14,938 nt of DNA from Candidatus Solibacter sp. GTDB lineage: Bacteria; Acidobacteriota; Terriglobia; Bryobacterales; Bryobacteraceae. This document shows positions 1,251 through 14,938 of the stretch, one piece after another. The position numbers and the translations under genes are program-made. The stretch spans positions 1 through 14,938 of the forward strand of contig JADGNT010000028.1 in the NCBI GenBank assembly GCA_017883345.1, written 5' to 3'. Every line of letters begins with the position of its first letter. The stretch's first letter is position 1. The notes under the pieces are model-generated. The model was not told where the DNA came from. It searched no databases and saw only the letters and a program-made list of their open reading frames with translations.

Positions 1251-1299
1251 GGCTAAGATTTCCTTTTTGATTTGCGGGGCGGGAACCTTGGGAAGAATG

Positions 1300-1336
1300 C
1301 CCCCACGAATGGGGTCATGGCAGCCTGAAAGGCTAC
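1300..1336 (-). repeat. Small double-hairpin palindromic element
   Basis: Two short hairpins lie side by side in the gap between the DUF1553 remnant and the DUF1501 gene. Read on the minus strand, AGCCT-TTC-AGGCT (1334 down to 1322) is followed by CCCCA-TTCG-TGGGG (1314 down to 1301). No T-run follows, so this is not a standard intrinsic terminator. Loop sequence and order match the larger element at 10933-11061, which suggests one repeat family. The assignment is inferred from two copies only. Confidence 0.5.
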
Positions 1337-1356
1337 GCTACAAAGAAATGGCATGG

Positions 1357-9640: not shown

Positions 9641-10845
9641 TACTCCGCCGCCCGCAGCACGGTGCACACGCTGGCGCAGATGGGGCCGCCGATATTGAAG
9701 GTCGCGGCGGCGCGCGGATTTGGCGCCTGCAAACCGGCCGGCGCTTTACCGAGCAGTTGGAGTGCGCTCCAGCCGATCATGGCGATGCCGGTGGCGCCGA
9801 TGGGGTGTCCCTTGGCGATCAGCCCGCCGGATGTATTGATGGCGCACTCGCCATCGGGCGCCGCCTTGCCCTCGACCCAGTATTGGGCGCCCTTGCCGGG
9901 CTCGGCTTTGCCGATCACTTCCGTGCCCAGCGCGCCCATCACGGTGAAGCAATCGTGCACTTCGGCCACGTTCACGTCTTCGGGTTTGACTCCCGCCATC
10001 TGGTAGGCCGTGCGCATGGCACGGTACGCGCCCGCGGGATGCAGCACATCGCGGCCGGCCTTGCGAATGGGGTCGGTCGCCTGTCCCCATCCCGCCACCT
10101 GCACGCACTCGGATTTGGGAACGCCGAGCTTCGCCAAGCCTTCAGCGGTAGCCAGAATCAGCGAGGCGTAGCCATCGGTGATCTGCGAGCAATCGTAGGT
10201 CTTGAGCGGCAGGCCCTCGACTACGTAGCGATTGAAGCCCTCGATCTGGAGCGCCTGATCGAGGGTGATCTGCACCTTGTTCATCTGCGCAAAGGGGTTG
10301 AACCGCGCGTTGGCATACTCCTGCACGGCGATTGCCGCGAGATCGCGTTCGGTGACGCCGTAGGCGTCCATGTACTCGCGCATCACTTCGGCGAAGATGT
10401 GGGGGAAGACGAAGACCTTGCCCGCGCGCTCGTCGGGATGAGAAAAGTAGCCGAGCACCTTGCCGATGAGCTTGCCGTCCATCTTGCCTTCGGCATCGCG
10501 CATCTTTTCGTAGCCCACGGCGATTCCGGTCTCGCCCATGCCGAGTTGCAGCTTCTGGATCACAGAGAGAACGGCCTGCCCGCCCGAGGCGCAGGCATTC
10601 TCCACCGCCTCGATGGGCTTGCCTTCCATGCCCGGCGTGTCCGCCATCAGCCCGGCGAGCAAACCCTGCTCGTTGAGGGAGAAATTGCAGGCCGCGCCGA
10701 TGCTGCCCACGTCCAAAGCAGACGGCTCCGTGCCGATTTGGCGGCAGGCGCCCTGGATGGCAGAATCCAGAATCTGGGGCACGGTCATGCCAAGCAGCTT
10801 GCCGAACTTCGATTGGTGGAAGGTGGCGATGTAAACAGGTTTCAC
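9640..10845 (-). CDS. SCP2-type thiolase / acetyl-CoA acyltransferase
   Basis: A 401-residue, full-length thiolase-superfamily protein, cytoplasmic. The start is GTG at 10845 (second residue onward KPVYIATFHQSKFG), the position where this family normally begins, with GGGA about 8 bases upstream. Seen: the nucleophilic Cys85 in ENACASGG, His297 in VHDCF, and GHPIGATG with His347. The usual C-terminal CxG of biosynthetic thiolases is replaced by GGPICASVC, which fits the sterol-carrier-protein-2 type subgroup. Members cleave or condense acyl-CoA thioesters; many act with a small OB-fold zinc-ribbon partner, and none is seen beside this gene. A TACAAT-like -10 candidate lies at 10864-10869 on the minus strand, without a convincing -35. 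The gene precedes the epimerase operon by 137 bp; co-transcription is possible but unproven. Confidence 0.92.
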   Translation of the reverse strand: MKPVYIATFHQSKFGKLLGMTVPQILDSAIQGACRQIGTEPSALDVGSIGAACNFSLNEQGLLAGLMADTPGMEGKPIEAVENACASGGQAVLSVIQKLQLGMGETGIAVGYEKMRDAEGKMDGKLIGKVLGYFSHPDERAGKVFVFPHIFAEVMREYMDAYGVTERDLAAIAVQEYANARFNPFAQMNKVQITLDQALQIEGFNRYVVEGLPLKTYDCSQITDGYASLILATAEGLAKLGVPKSECVQVAGWGQATDPIRKAGRDVLHPAGAYRAMRTAYQMAGVKPEDVNVAEVHDCFTVMGALGTEVIGKAEPGKGAQYWVEGKAAPDGECAINTSGGLIAKGHPIGATGIAMIGWSALQLLGKAPAGLQAPNPRAAATFNIGGPICASVCTVLRAAE

Positions 10846-10932
10846 GGTAATGTCCCAGTTCCAATTGTAGGGCCGGCCATTTCACGGCGGAGCACCTAGT
10901 ACTTCGACCAAATGATAAAGTTCGCCACGTCA

Positions 10933-11061
10933 GCGGCTCCGTGGAGCCGCCTTTCCAGGCGGCCACCTCGGCATTCGTGCCGAGGTGCCTTCCGGCCTGG
11001 ATATGCCCGCTAGAAAGCGGGCATGGCCGGCGGGGTACCCTCTGGGTCCGCCGGCTCCACG
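10933..11061. repeat. Compact multi-hairpin element, MITE-like or structured RNA
   Basis: Perfect hairpins follow one another with almost no spacer. They are GCGGCTCC/GGAGCCGC (10933-10950); GCCGCCT-TTCC-AGGCGGC (10946-10963), which overlaps the first and excludes it; CACCTCGGCA-TTCG-TGCCGAGGTG (10964-10987), a 10-bp stem with a UUCG-type tetraloop; ATGCCCGCT-AGAA-AGCGGGCAT (11003-11024); and GCCGGCGG/CCGCCGGC (11026-11033 with 11048-11055) enclosing ACCC-TCT-GGGT. The ends also pair with each other: CGTGGAGCCG (10940-10949) with CGGCTCCACG (11052-11061), making terminal inverted repeats or a closing stem. No T-run follows and no open frame of value crosses it. It lies about 90 bp upstream of the thiolase start and about 24 bp from the toxin remnant. 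It is either a non-autonomous palindromic mobile element or a folded RNA. Confidence 0.75.
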
Positions 11062-11084
11062 AATTGAGGCTTAGGAGAACCTAT

Positions 11085-11240
11085 TCAGACGGCCGAACTA
11101 CTAGACCGCCGCTTGAGATTCGTGCCGCGCGATTGGCCCAGCGACTCAAGTTTTTGGACGACACGGACCAGCACGTTATCCGGTAACGCTTCGAGTTCCT
11201 TCGGTGCGGGAGGCTTTACTTCAACGGAATAACTACTCAC
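11085..11240 (-). pseudogene. RelE/ParE-family toxin, N-terminal remnant
   Basis: A 51-codon minus-strand frame from GTG 11240 to TGA 11085-11087. It begins MSSYSVEVKPPAPKELEALP and continues DNVLVRVVQKLESLAQS. This is the alpha-helical N-terminal half typical of RelE/ParE mRNA-interferase or gyrase toxins, which run to about 85-95 residues. After about residue 38 it drifts into RGTNLKRRSSSSAV, and the strands that carry the toxin active site are absent. The GTG overlaps the stop of the antitoxin remnant (GTGAGTAG), the usual toxin-antitoxin arrangement, which supports the assignment. It is almost certainly inactive. Confidence 0.65.
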
Positions 11241-11849: not shown

Positions 11850-12015
11850 TCAATCCCCGAGGAACTTGCCGAACGCCCGCAGCCCCTTGACGTTGTCGCA
11901 GACCGCCTTGATCCCCGCCGTCAGCGGAATCGCCAGCAAGAGGCCCGGCGCGTCCCACTGGAACCCCCAGATCGTCAGCGAAAACGTCACCACCAGCGGA
12001 TTCAAGTGAACTCGC
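11850..12015. repeat. Direct repeat copy A (AI-2E 3' end)
   Basis: This 166-bp segment matches 13753-13918 with 8 mismatches and no gaps by hand alignment (about 95% identity). It covers the last 55 codons and stop of the AI-2E permease gene. Similarity stops sharply after CTCGC at 12015 and fades within about 15 bases past the stop. The copies are in the same orientation, 1903 bp apart, and flank the acyltransferase and cyclophilin genes. Confidence 0.9.
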
Positions 12016-12248
12016 TGGTGCACGCGCTCCGGCGCCCGCGCCATCTCCATGGCCTCCACCACCTTGTTCACCATCGGCCCCTTCCCGCTGCCCTTGGTGG
12101 AAAAGTTGAGCAGCGCCACCACGGGCTCGGTGTTCATGAGCACTCGCGTGCTCTCCGCCGTGGCGATCGCGATATCGGCCATCTGCATCGCGTTGGGCTC
12201 AATCACCACCGCGCAATCGGCGAACGCAATCCGCCCGGTTTGTAGCTC
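11850..12248 (-). pseudogene. Fused scrap: phosphotransacetylase fragment plus AI-2E permease tail
   Basis: One open minus-strand frame joins two unrelated family fragments. Codons from about 12248 to 12033 read FADCAVVIEPNAMQMADIAI, then EPVVALLNFSTKGSGKGPMV and VVEAMEMARA. This is characteristic of the C-terminal half of phosphate acetyltransferase (Pta) or its MaeB fusion. From about 12015 to TGA 11850 the frame reads RVHLNPLVVTFSL, then WDAPGLLLAIPLTAG and LRAFGKFLGD, the tail of an AI-2E permease. Neither part has a catalytic core, a start or its own upstream region. Upstream of 12248 similarity ends at the acyltransferase leader. The piece records at least two recombination events and is unlikely to make a useful protein. 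Confidence 0.8.
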
Positions 12249-12315
12249 CGGCGGCGGAAATAAGTTGCTCCTGGCTGTCGAGAGTGCAAGAATTTGGACA
12301 GCCGAATCATTCAAG

Positions 12316-13056
12316 ATGACCCGTCTTCTACGATCCGCTTGGATTTGGGCTGCGACTGGAGCTCTTATTCTGCTTTGGGTCCCGCTGCTGGGCGCGATCA
12401 GGCTCTTTGACGTCGAGCCGCGCCGGCTGCGAACCGGACGCTGGTTCCGCAGGCTTGGGCGCGTCCTTGCAAGAGTCAACCCTTGGCGAATCCACATTTC
12501 GGGCGGTGAAAACCTGAACACGAACCAGGTGTACGTCATCGTTAGCAATCATCAGTCCATGGCCGATATCCCGGTGATTTCGCACCTGAAGCTGGATACG
12601 AAATGGCTCGCCAAGGCGGAGTTGTTCCGGTTGCCTTTACTGGGCTGGATGCTCCGCATGACAGGGGACGTGCCGATCGAACGATCCGACCGGCGCAAGG
12701 GTGCGACAGCGATGTTGCAGTGTGCGCGATATCTGCGCCAGCGATGCTCGGTCGTTTTTTTCCCCGAAGGAACCCGATCGCCTGACGGGCGGGTCCTGCC
12801 GTTCAACGAGGGTCCATTTAAGTTGGCGATTCGTGAGCAAATCCCAATATTGCCGCTGGTGGTGGAAGGCTCCGGAACCGCTCTGCCACGAAATTCGTGG
12901 ATTTTTGGAAGAACCCAGGATATCCATCTTCGGATACTGGACGCCATTCCCGTGGACGGATGGAACATCAAACAAGTTCCCGCACTGCGAGATGCAGTTC
13001 GGCAGAGAATTGTGGACGAGTTGGACCGGCTGCGCGGTACAGGTCGAGGATCTTGA
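12316..13056 (+). CDS. plsC: 1-acyl-sn-glycerol-3-phosphate acyltransferase (PlsC type)
   Basis: A 246-residue inner-membrane acyltransferase of the PlsC family. It would transfer a fatty acyl chain to lysophosphatidic acid, or a similar lysolipid, in phospholipid synthesis. The ATG at 12316 is chosen because it starts an N-terminal membrane segment (AWIWAATGALILLWVPLLGA, about residues 8-27) and gives the usual family length; the open frame extends upstream only through the antisense of the Pta scrap. Acyltransferase motifs in order: NHQSMAD with the catalytic His79 and Asp84, GDVPIERSDRR near 117-127, FFPEGTRS near 148-155, and ILPLVVEGSG near 178-187. The ribosome-binding site is weak. Its leader abuts the recombination debris, so its promoter may be new; a loose TTGCTC and AAGAAT pair lies in 12260-12295. 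The cyclophilin gene follows 75 bp downstream. Confidence 0.92.
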   Translation: MTRLLRSAWIWAATGALILLWVPLLGAIRLFDVEPRRLRTGRWFRRLGRVLARVNPWRIHISGGENLNTNQVYVIVSNHQSMADIPVISHLKLDTKWLAKAELFRLPLLGWMLRMTGDVPIERSDRRKGATAMLQCARYLRQRCSVVFFPEGTRSPDGRVLPFNEGPFKLAIREQIPILPLVVEGSGTALPRNSWIFGRTQDIHLRILDAIPVDGWNIKQVPALRDAVRQRIVDELDRLRGTGRGS

Positions 13057-13752: not shown

Positions 13753-13918
13753 TCAATCCCCCAGGAACTTGCCGAACGCCCGCAGCCCCTTGACGTTGTC
13801 GCAGACCGCCTTGAGGCCCGCCGTCAGCGGGATCGCCAGCAAGAGGCCCGGTGCGTCCCACAGGAACCCCCAGATCATCAGCGAAAACGTCACCACTAGC
13901 GGATTCAAGTGAACTCGC
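13753..13918. repeat. Direct repeat copy B (AI-2E 3' end, in the larger gene)
   Basis: This is the 3' portion of the larger AI-2E permease gene that is duplicated at 11850-12015. Three of the encoded residues differ between copies: SLMIW/SLTIW, GFLWD/GFQWD and TAGLK/TAGIK. This copy continues into the rest of the gene and is therefore the likely source or the older allele. Confidence 0.9.
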
Positions 13919-14938
13919 GAACCCACGATCTTCGGGTACAGCACGTTCAACGCAACCAGGTGCAGCATCGCCACCGTCACCACCACCAGCACGTACACCG
14001 GCACCGCGTTCAAAGGCAGCGCCGCGAATAGCGGCGGAATCATGGCCAGCGGCAGTCCGATATACGGCACCAGGCTCATGAACCCGCTCAGCGGACCCAC
14101 CAGCATCGGGTAGGGCACGCGCAGCGCCCAAAACAGCGTCGAGCTGATCAACGCCAGCAGCAGACCCAGCACGAAGTTGCCCACCACAAAGGCCCGCACC
14201 ATGTCGGCAATCCCCTGCACGCTGCGCGCCGCGATCAGGCGATCCTCGCCGTGGAAGAATTGCAGGAAGCTGCGGTTGATGTGGTCCCGCCAGCTCAGCA
14301 TGAAGTACACCAGGAACGGGATGAACGACGCCATCAGCAGCACCTGGTACACCGAGCTCAGGCGCGAATAGACGTAATCGCCGATTGGCGTGCGCTCTTG
14401 AAGAATCCTTACTTCGGGGATCGCCCCCGGCATTGGCTGCGGCGCCGGCTGCGGCAGGGGCGTGGCGCCCTTCTTGCCCTTCTTGGCCGCCGTCAGCGCC
14501 TGCTCCTGCTGCTTGCGGCGCTCTTCTTCCTGGCGCTGCCGCGCGGGAACCAGCATCTTGTAGGTCTGGTCTTCCATGGCGGAGATCTTCTGCTGGATCC
14601 CGTCCACCAGGTCGGCGACGCGCTGCCCGTACTTCGGCAGCTCGTCGTAGAGACCCGACAGTTGCGAATACGCCCCCAGCCCGATGACGTAGAGCAGCGC
14701 CAGCGCGAACGAACACACCACGAAGCTGGCCAGGGAGCGCGGGAAGCGAATGCGCATCAACAGGGCCACGAACGGTTCCAAAATGAAGGCGATGGTCAGC
14801 GCGATCAGCGACGTGATAAAGAAAAGACGCCCCAGGTACAGGATGGCAATCACCACCCCCAGCGCCAGAATCGGCAAAGCGATGTGACGCGCCTCCCGAG
14901 CGGCGCTGGCGGTGCTGGATGAAGGCTGCGTTACGACG
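13753..14938 (-). CDS. AI-2E family transporter (TqsA/PerM-like), 5' end outside window
   Basis: The minus-strand frame ends with TGA at 13753-13755 and runs open through the right edge; a TTG at 14877 lies inside an already open, family-like reading (REARHIALPILALGVVIAIL), so the true start is probably outside. At least 394 codons are visible. The hydrophobic segments have the AI-2E/PerM pattern: an N-terminal pair (LPILALGVVIAILYLG and LIALTIAFILEPFVALL), a third (ASFVVCSFALALLYVIGLGA), then later segments including FVVGNFVLGLLLALISSTLF, SLVPYIGLPLAMIPPLFA, HLNPLVVTFSLMIWGFLWDA and GLLLAIPLTAG. Family members export autoinducer-2 or act as sodium/proton antiporters; substrate unknown here. 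The soluble domain holds a charged then Pro/Ala-rich insert (EEERRKQQEQ, later PLPQPAPQPMPG) about 110-155 residues after the TTG. Confidence 0.92.
   Translation of the reverse strand, partial: VVTQPSSSTASAAREARHIALPILALGVVIAILYLGRLFFITSLIALTIAFILEPFVALLMRIRFPRSLASFVVCSFALALLYVIGLGAYSQLSGLYDELPKYGQRVADLVDGIQQKISAMEDQTYKMLVPARQRQEEERRKQQEQALTAAKKGKKGATPLPQPAPQPMPGAIPEVRILQERTPIGDYVYSRLSSVYQVLLMASFIPFLVYFMLSWRDHINRSFLQFFHGEDRLIAARSVQGIADMVRAFVVGNFVLGLLLALISSTLFWALRVPYPMLVGPLSGFMSLVPYIGLPLAMIPPLFAALPLNAVPVYVLVVVTVAMLHLVALNVLYPKIVGSRVHLNPLVVTFSLMIWGFLWDAPGLLLAIPLTAGLKAVCDNVKGLRAFGKFLGD

Follow-up and report, generated by a model that had tools for sequence, protein, structure and literature searches.

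The window analysed here is a 14,938-nucleotide stretch from Candidatus Solibacter sp. It holds a thiolase gene with its start codon at 10845, the remnant of a ParE-type toxin gene and, between the two, a 129-base stretch (10933-11061) built of hairpins. The first-pass annotation had read this stretch as either a non-autonomous palindromic mobile element or a folded RNA with two alternative states. The features that the following argument needs are these:

10941..11060, no strand assigned: REPIN-like element made of two tagged double-hairpin units that face each other (aligned copies; covariance model R2, without rows of the element, matches both units)
10941..10987, plus strand: left unit, with tag GTGG at 10941-10944, hairpin 1 at 10946-10963 and hairpin 2 at 10964-10987 (R2 match 10941-10986, 42.6 bits, E 4.4e-11; stems)
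11003..11060, minus strand: right unit, read on that strand with tag GTGG at 11060-11057, hairpin 1 stem 11026-11033/11048-11055 and hairpin 2 at 11003-11024 (R2 match, 31.7 bits, E 5.8e-8; 18 nt where the alignment to model R1 expects a 5-nt loop)
11032..11049, plus strand: loop cassette GGGGTACCCTCTGGGTCC replacing the ordinary hairpin 1 loop (180 places in the own genome with 2 mismatches allowed and none for the control; copies C793, C13 and C865 have the ordinary loop)
10897..11103, no strand assigned: wider repeat of 207 bp whose inverted ends match imperfectly, at 11 of 14 bases in the window (C166, C620 and C793 have both ends; C82, C403 and C740 have one)
11085..11240, minus strand: ParE-type toxin gene remnant whose frame terminates inside the wider repeat (whole gene in a relative; truncated frame in the window)
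1297..1341, minus strand: another double-hairpin unit of the family, canonical in form (73.2 bits with R2, whose rows hold identical letters)

The last of these carries the tag GTAG, and its letters are identical to those of other units in the genome. Elsewhere in the window, an ORF at 11850-12548 on the minus strand combines a piece of phosphotransacetylase with the tail of an AI-2E family transporter, and the AI-2E transporter ORF at 13753-14877 (minus strand) ends in a very similar tail; the former has the appearance of a joined remnant or a partial duplication.

Fold and paired units

Read directly in the sequence, the 129-base stretch contains a 10-bp stem closed by TTCG (10964-10973/10978-10987), a 9-bp stem closed by AGAA (11003-11011/11016-11024) and a 6-bp stem at 10946-10951/10958-10963, while an 8-bp stem (11026-11033/11048-11055) encloses the inner stem ACCC-TCT-GGGT. 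A further 8-bp stem, 10933-10940/10943-10950, leaves 2 nt between its arms and takes the form of 7 bp with a 4-nt loop in the predicted fold. Ten base pairs can join the two ends (10940-10949 with 11052-11061), and the stretch has no T-run. These stems, the pairing ends and the missing T-run are all present in the letters as first described. The folding energy of the given strand is -86.4 kcal/mol, against -60.1 +/- 4.0 for shuffled sequences (z -6.6; none of 200 shuffles was as good), and that of the reverse strand is -86.0 (z -6.7). The first-pass annotation had staked its reading on a fold better than shuffled sequence and on a second copy in a related genome; the energy lies far below the shuffled one on both strands, and copies are present in the genome itself.

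Two parts of that earlier description fared differently. The extent held for a tagged element at approximately 10941-11060, and bases 10933-10940 turned out to be part of the wider repeat at 10897-11103. The two alternative RNA states relied on the competing left stem, 10933-10950. A run of at least six of its pairs occurs in 1 of 99 other family units, among which left units of the window subtype are absent, and equally in 1 of 99 in the re-dealt control. The stem is mostly kept in near-identical copies, an uninformative result. With the competing stem at chance level among the 99 other units, the two-state RNA was set aside.

An alignment of the copies resolves the element into modules: the left one is GTGG or GTAG followed by two hairpins, and the right one is the same reversed. 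The tag is GTGG at both element ends and GTAG in most family units. Copies C793, C13 and C865 have an ordinary short hairpin 1 loop in the right module, and there the element spans GTAG to CTAC; the corresponding loop is GGGGTACCCTCTGGGTCC in the window and in C620, and GGGGTACCCTCTGGGTC in C416. We used two covariance models. The rows of R1 take in the left unit of the window, as well as near copies of the right one, which makes R1 scores in the window partly a matter of construction. R2 was built from a stricter 49-unit set without the window element or its close copies, and it nevertheless recovers both window units. Matches of both models place two inverted REP units with their tags outward and no gene between them, which is the orientation of a REPIN.

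Copies, compensatory changes and the loop cassette

The own genome (G000) is an assembly of 5.45 Mb in 890 contigs, 79% complete. When positions 10900-11100 were used as a query against it, 42 matches were obtained (40 of 192 first-look candidates were scored), ranging from the nearly complete C620 (96% over 193 bases) to single hairpins; complete copies of the window type are few. The units themselves are far more abundant. With as many as 3 mismatches allowed, the own genome holds 175 places with the pattern GTAGMGTMGCCTTNCAGGCKGCC and 1 with its reversed form; with no more than 2 allowed, the numbers are 159 and 0. R1 has at least 150 matches there. Family units thus form the many dispersed copies that the REPIN definition calls for. 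G004 is the only one of the 100 relatives with multiple places of the unit pattern (10); seven have one each, approximately the control level. The stretch 10900-11100 matches 11 of 101 genomes, the own one included, and the 10 relatives among them contain single hairpins only. With up to 150 candidates per genome scored, R1 gave at least 35 matches in G004, 31 in G001, 17 in G006, 12 in G007, 2 in G003 and 1 in G002 (each a lower bound), and none in the other genus genomes, G005 and G008.

Most of the units at home are single. In 60 loci fetched around GTAG units, R1 finds 69 units, and clear head-to-head pairs are found in five of these loci (L212, L232, L245, L246 and L256); L231 and L235 hold a partial or wide pair, L216 a tail-to-tail one and L249 a tandem. 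A further head-to-head pair, cassette-bearing L238, was seen by eye and missed by R1. Doublets therefore do not prevail as they do among REPs of P. fluorescens SBW25, where the consulted part of the source puts 61% in doublets (PMC3116915), and we chose the term REPIN-like because single units dominate.

The hairpins change in a compensatory way, which the earlier reading had named as a sign in its favour. An alignment of 55 units, 52 of them distinct, has 97.4% of its cells paired, and 83 cells carry a double change, against 22.1 +/- 3.5 in shuffled and 0 to 23 in slid versions; because the units are related, the cells far outnumber the independent change events. When the window type is left out, in the stricter set of 49 units, it is hairpin 2 that shows the effect (57 double-change cells against 14.5 +/- 2.8). 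One pair of this hairpin, however, is open in 13 of the 46 distinct units, and shuffled versions are not exceeded in two of five covariation measures; hairpin 1 is nearly invariant in this set and thus gives no covariation signal. Units of both alignments were mostly picked from 67 distinct ones. Pairs of U with G are frequent, as in 50 of 52 units at one hairpin 1 pair.

The tip of hairpin 1 in the right unit has a distribution of its own. The cassette GGGGTACCCTCTGGGTCC, whose 180 home places contrast with none in the control, occurs, with 1 mismatch allowed, in 12 of 101 genomes (control 0), with 135 places in the own genome, 70 in G057, 65 in G004, 48 in G006, 15 in G002, 13 in G001, 7 in G003, 4 in G009, 3 in G038 and 1 each in G028, G053 and G072. 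A stem score of at least 6 surrounds it in 38 of the 78 distinct home places read. The stems differ in their letters and share their tips, in ratios that describe own-genome loci, many of them fetched for holding the cassette, and not the genome. Thirty-one stems of the pattern GTGGGGCAGGCG/CGCCTGCC carry the cassette forward in 11 cases (and 1 variant), reversed in 6 (and 1 variant), and the short loops CTTC and CTTT in 6 each. Among 11 GTGGGACAGRCG stems the cassette and CTTT appear four times each, and among six GGCATGGCAGGCG stems the cassette appears twice and short loops four times. The window's own stem, GCATGGCCGGC, was read six times, with the cassette in three and TGAAA in two; GWTGCARCC stems, also six, divide evenly between cassette and TGAAA. 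Since the first three patterns share inner letters, approximately three clearly different stem types are represented. No longer insert was seen inside the cassette of GGCAGGCG stems among the loci examined.

We raise tentatively the idea that the cassette is itself mobile, a hairpin tip transferred in either orientation between differently built REP hairpins. The window could then be read as one such transfer because the same element occurs with the ordinary loop and with the cassette. If so, families of mobile repeats trade tips, and the stems would keep a readable record of REP families exchanging parts.

The cassette sequence also lies in a gene-like stretch shared with G038 (L261; L111 and L390), so not every match is a hairpin tip; this may be either chance or the origin of the cassette. 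At L067 and L249, a cassette-like GGGGTGCCCTYTGGGCC lies between hairpin 1 and hairpin 2 rather than in a loop.

The site, the wider repeat and the transposase

In the relative G001, a short-chain dehydrogenase gene is followed by a small ORF whose RelB-like match is weak and below cut-off, then by a ParE-type toxin (PF05016, 48.3 bits) and thiolase. BLAST similarity between the window and G001 stops at approximately 11134 and resumes at approximately 10899. The toxin gene, whole in G001, ends in the window within the 207-bp repeat, which bears out the earlier remark about a broken toxin locus. Taken together, the gap in similarity and the end of the remnant's frame inside the repeat suggest that the arrival of the repeat accompanied or followed the loss of the 3′ part of the toxin gene and was not a clean insertion.

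Thiolase matches were found in six of the eight other genus genomes. The sequence upstream could be read over 1,100 bases in G003, G001, G007 and G004 and over 96 bases in G006; the start in G002 is unplaceable, and this genome is not counted. None of these five upstream regions holds a match to the element, none is a clean empty site of it, and the flanks of the 207-bp repeat have no match in any of the eight. In G006 (L282), the 96 bases before thiolase hold a fragment resembling a different repeat, GTGGGGCAGG; repeats of another family therefore also occupy the thiolase site.

The element lies only 95 bases upstream of the thiolase start codon, and the first-pass annotation had suggested that it might sit in the thiolase leader. 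Since the part conserved upstream of the gene ends at approximately 10899 and the start regions of the five readable relatives lack the element, we rejected a regulatory leader, a role that we now regard as hardly credible.

More weight is due to the possibility that the wider repeat is the moving entity, a MITE mobilised by some other transposase through its inverted ends, with the hairpin pair as cargo that landed inside it. The repeat has the terminal inverted repeats expected of a MITE, TAGTACTTCGACCA and, reversed, TAGTAGTTCGGCCG, imperfect as they are, and both of them enclose the hairpin pair at C166, C620 and C793, with one end at three more loci. Yet C13 and C865 have the pair without the outer ends, no outer ends without hairpins were reported, and an autonomous relative with such ends was not seen in the assembly, 79% complete as it is. 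The target duplications that would have favoured insertion, according to the earlier annotation, are not evident at the boundaries of the window copy; CTAG/CTAG and ATAG/ATAG were considered and rejected, as copies of NTAG lie at or in the inverted ends. On balance we find the MITE explanation unlikely. An explanation by transcribed RNA, in which the hairpins protect or process messages or end transcription and are kept for that role, is not exclusive with mobility. It could draw on the strong fold, the compensatory changes and the frequent U-G pairs, and RNA roles of REPs are proposed in the consulted part of one study (PMC3733652). However, the opposite strand folds equally well, there is no T-run, the window has no Rfam match at gathering score, and mobility explains both the copies and the association with a RAYT gene; we therefore regard a conserved RNA role as very improbable.

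That association begins with the transposases of the own genome, where Y1_Tnp matches occur at eight places, seven of them above cut-off. The gene at L035, on C7, encodes a protein with a Y1_Tnp match of 31.8 bits (cut-off 23). Against the NCBIfam model of REP-associated tyrosine transposases the protein scores 72.9 bits, just short of the cut-off of 80. Family units flank it: the left one is canonical, GTAGCGTAGCCTTTTAGGCTGCC followed by ATGACCCCATTCATGGGGGCAT, and on the right a diverged, reversed unit overlaps the gene end. Both belong to the common subtype and not to that of the window. H-V-H, W-Q and the tyrosine are invariant across five aligned RAYTs related to L035. Such relatives are present in 61 of 101 genomes, and among the best 80 of 425 confirmed loci in the named collection, the closest are mostly from Bryobacterales and other Acidobacteriota and the more distant include many Verrucomicrobiota. 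Other RAYT matches in the genome are broken or partial: there are two frames on G000:C784, and an internal stop on G000:C740 (L038) with loop cassettes nearby.

A flank test was started from 115 RAYT loci, of which 1 without a match, 9 with too little flank and 1 duplicate were dropped. Similar units lie on the two sides in 79 of the 104 distinct loci that remained (local score of at least 18), against 0 with shuffled flanks; because the units are palindromic, the direct-orientation control is also high (46 of 104), and the test shows shared units and not their orientation. GTRG stands at the start of the matched stretch in 42 of the 79. L035 itself scores 16.5, under the threshold because its right unit is diverged, and so stands outside the 79. 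Two or more hairpins occur in the first 60 bases of 63 of the 79 loci, only modestly above the 46 of 79 after shuffling; for this reason, double hairpins at RAYT ends rest on our reading of the matched stretches, of which L036, L037, L178, L184, L185, L310 and L333 show two consecutive hairpins.

We consider it very likely that the 129-base stretch belongs to the GTAG-tagged REP class as a miniature, REPIN-like mobile element of variant architecture, and would be firmer still if it were not for the high hairpin-count control and the diverged right unit of L035. The non-autonomous palindromic element proposed at the outset is supported, with many copies at home, compensatory hairpin changes and a truncated toxin gene adjacent. 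We infer that the window element is mobile and that L035 is the acting enzyme. The stretch is a gene-less hairpin repeat whose spread is probably due to an enzyme encoded elsewhere in the genome of this soil bacterium. If studied REPs are a guide, a RAYT (a transposase of the HUH/Y1 type) would act on single-stranded DNA, where it would recognise the tag together with the folded hairpin, cut at the tagged hairpin and carry the element or unit elsewhere.

Comparison with known systems

No description of this element was found in the literature searched, namely the titles and abstract beginnings of one library, including a search for Bryobacter with "repetitive extragenic palindromic". The REPIN and RAYT papers cited here centre mainly on Pseudomonas and enterobacteria in the parts consulted. 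As far as the REPIN source was available (PMC3116915), the element shares with REPINs two close, inverted, tagged REPs, a whole that can fold as hairpins, compensatory changes, many copies and a RAYT in the genome; it differs in that each end is a double hairpin, that one loop is replaced by the cassette, and that home units are mostly single, whereas doublets prevail in P. fluorescens SBW25.

The GTAG-tagged REP dimers, in the sections of their description seen here (PMC3733652), share the GTRG tag, head-to-head dimers whose spacers are structured, double palindromes next to transposase genes and several kinds of loop on one stem, a likeness by description and not letter by letter. According to the same sections, by Di Nocera and colleagues, tyrosine transposase genes can have double palindromic ends, and shared as well as alternative loops are known for the GTAG families (PMC3733652). 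By comparison with them, one loop sequence of 16-18 nt occurs here in several stems and in both orientations. Insertion sequences that target REPs likewise place foreign DNA within them, as may be true of the cassette, although the cassette measures only 16-18 nt and holds no gene (PMC1525189, seen in part).

The sections consulted on REPtrons and TnpA_REP (PMC6006769, PMC8266576) describe, as found here, a RAYT gene flanked by REP units, and the NHVH, WQ and YI..NP motifs of L035 resemble those listed there for several TnpA_REP subclasses. The Acidobacteriota class 3 TnpA_REP structures in these sections have a CnGA foot, whereas the units here have GTRG. The class is therefore a known one, and the variant lies in the double-hairpin ends, the mostly single units, the 207-bp surround and the shared loop cassette. 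A dense system of the REPIN/RAYT class, in which double-hairpin ends lie next to transposase genes, is present in this Bryobacterales-like genome.
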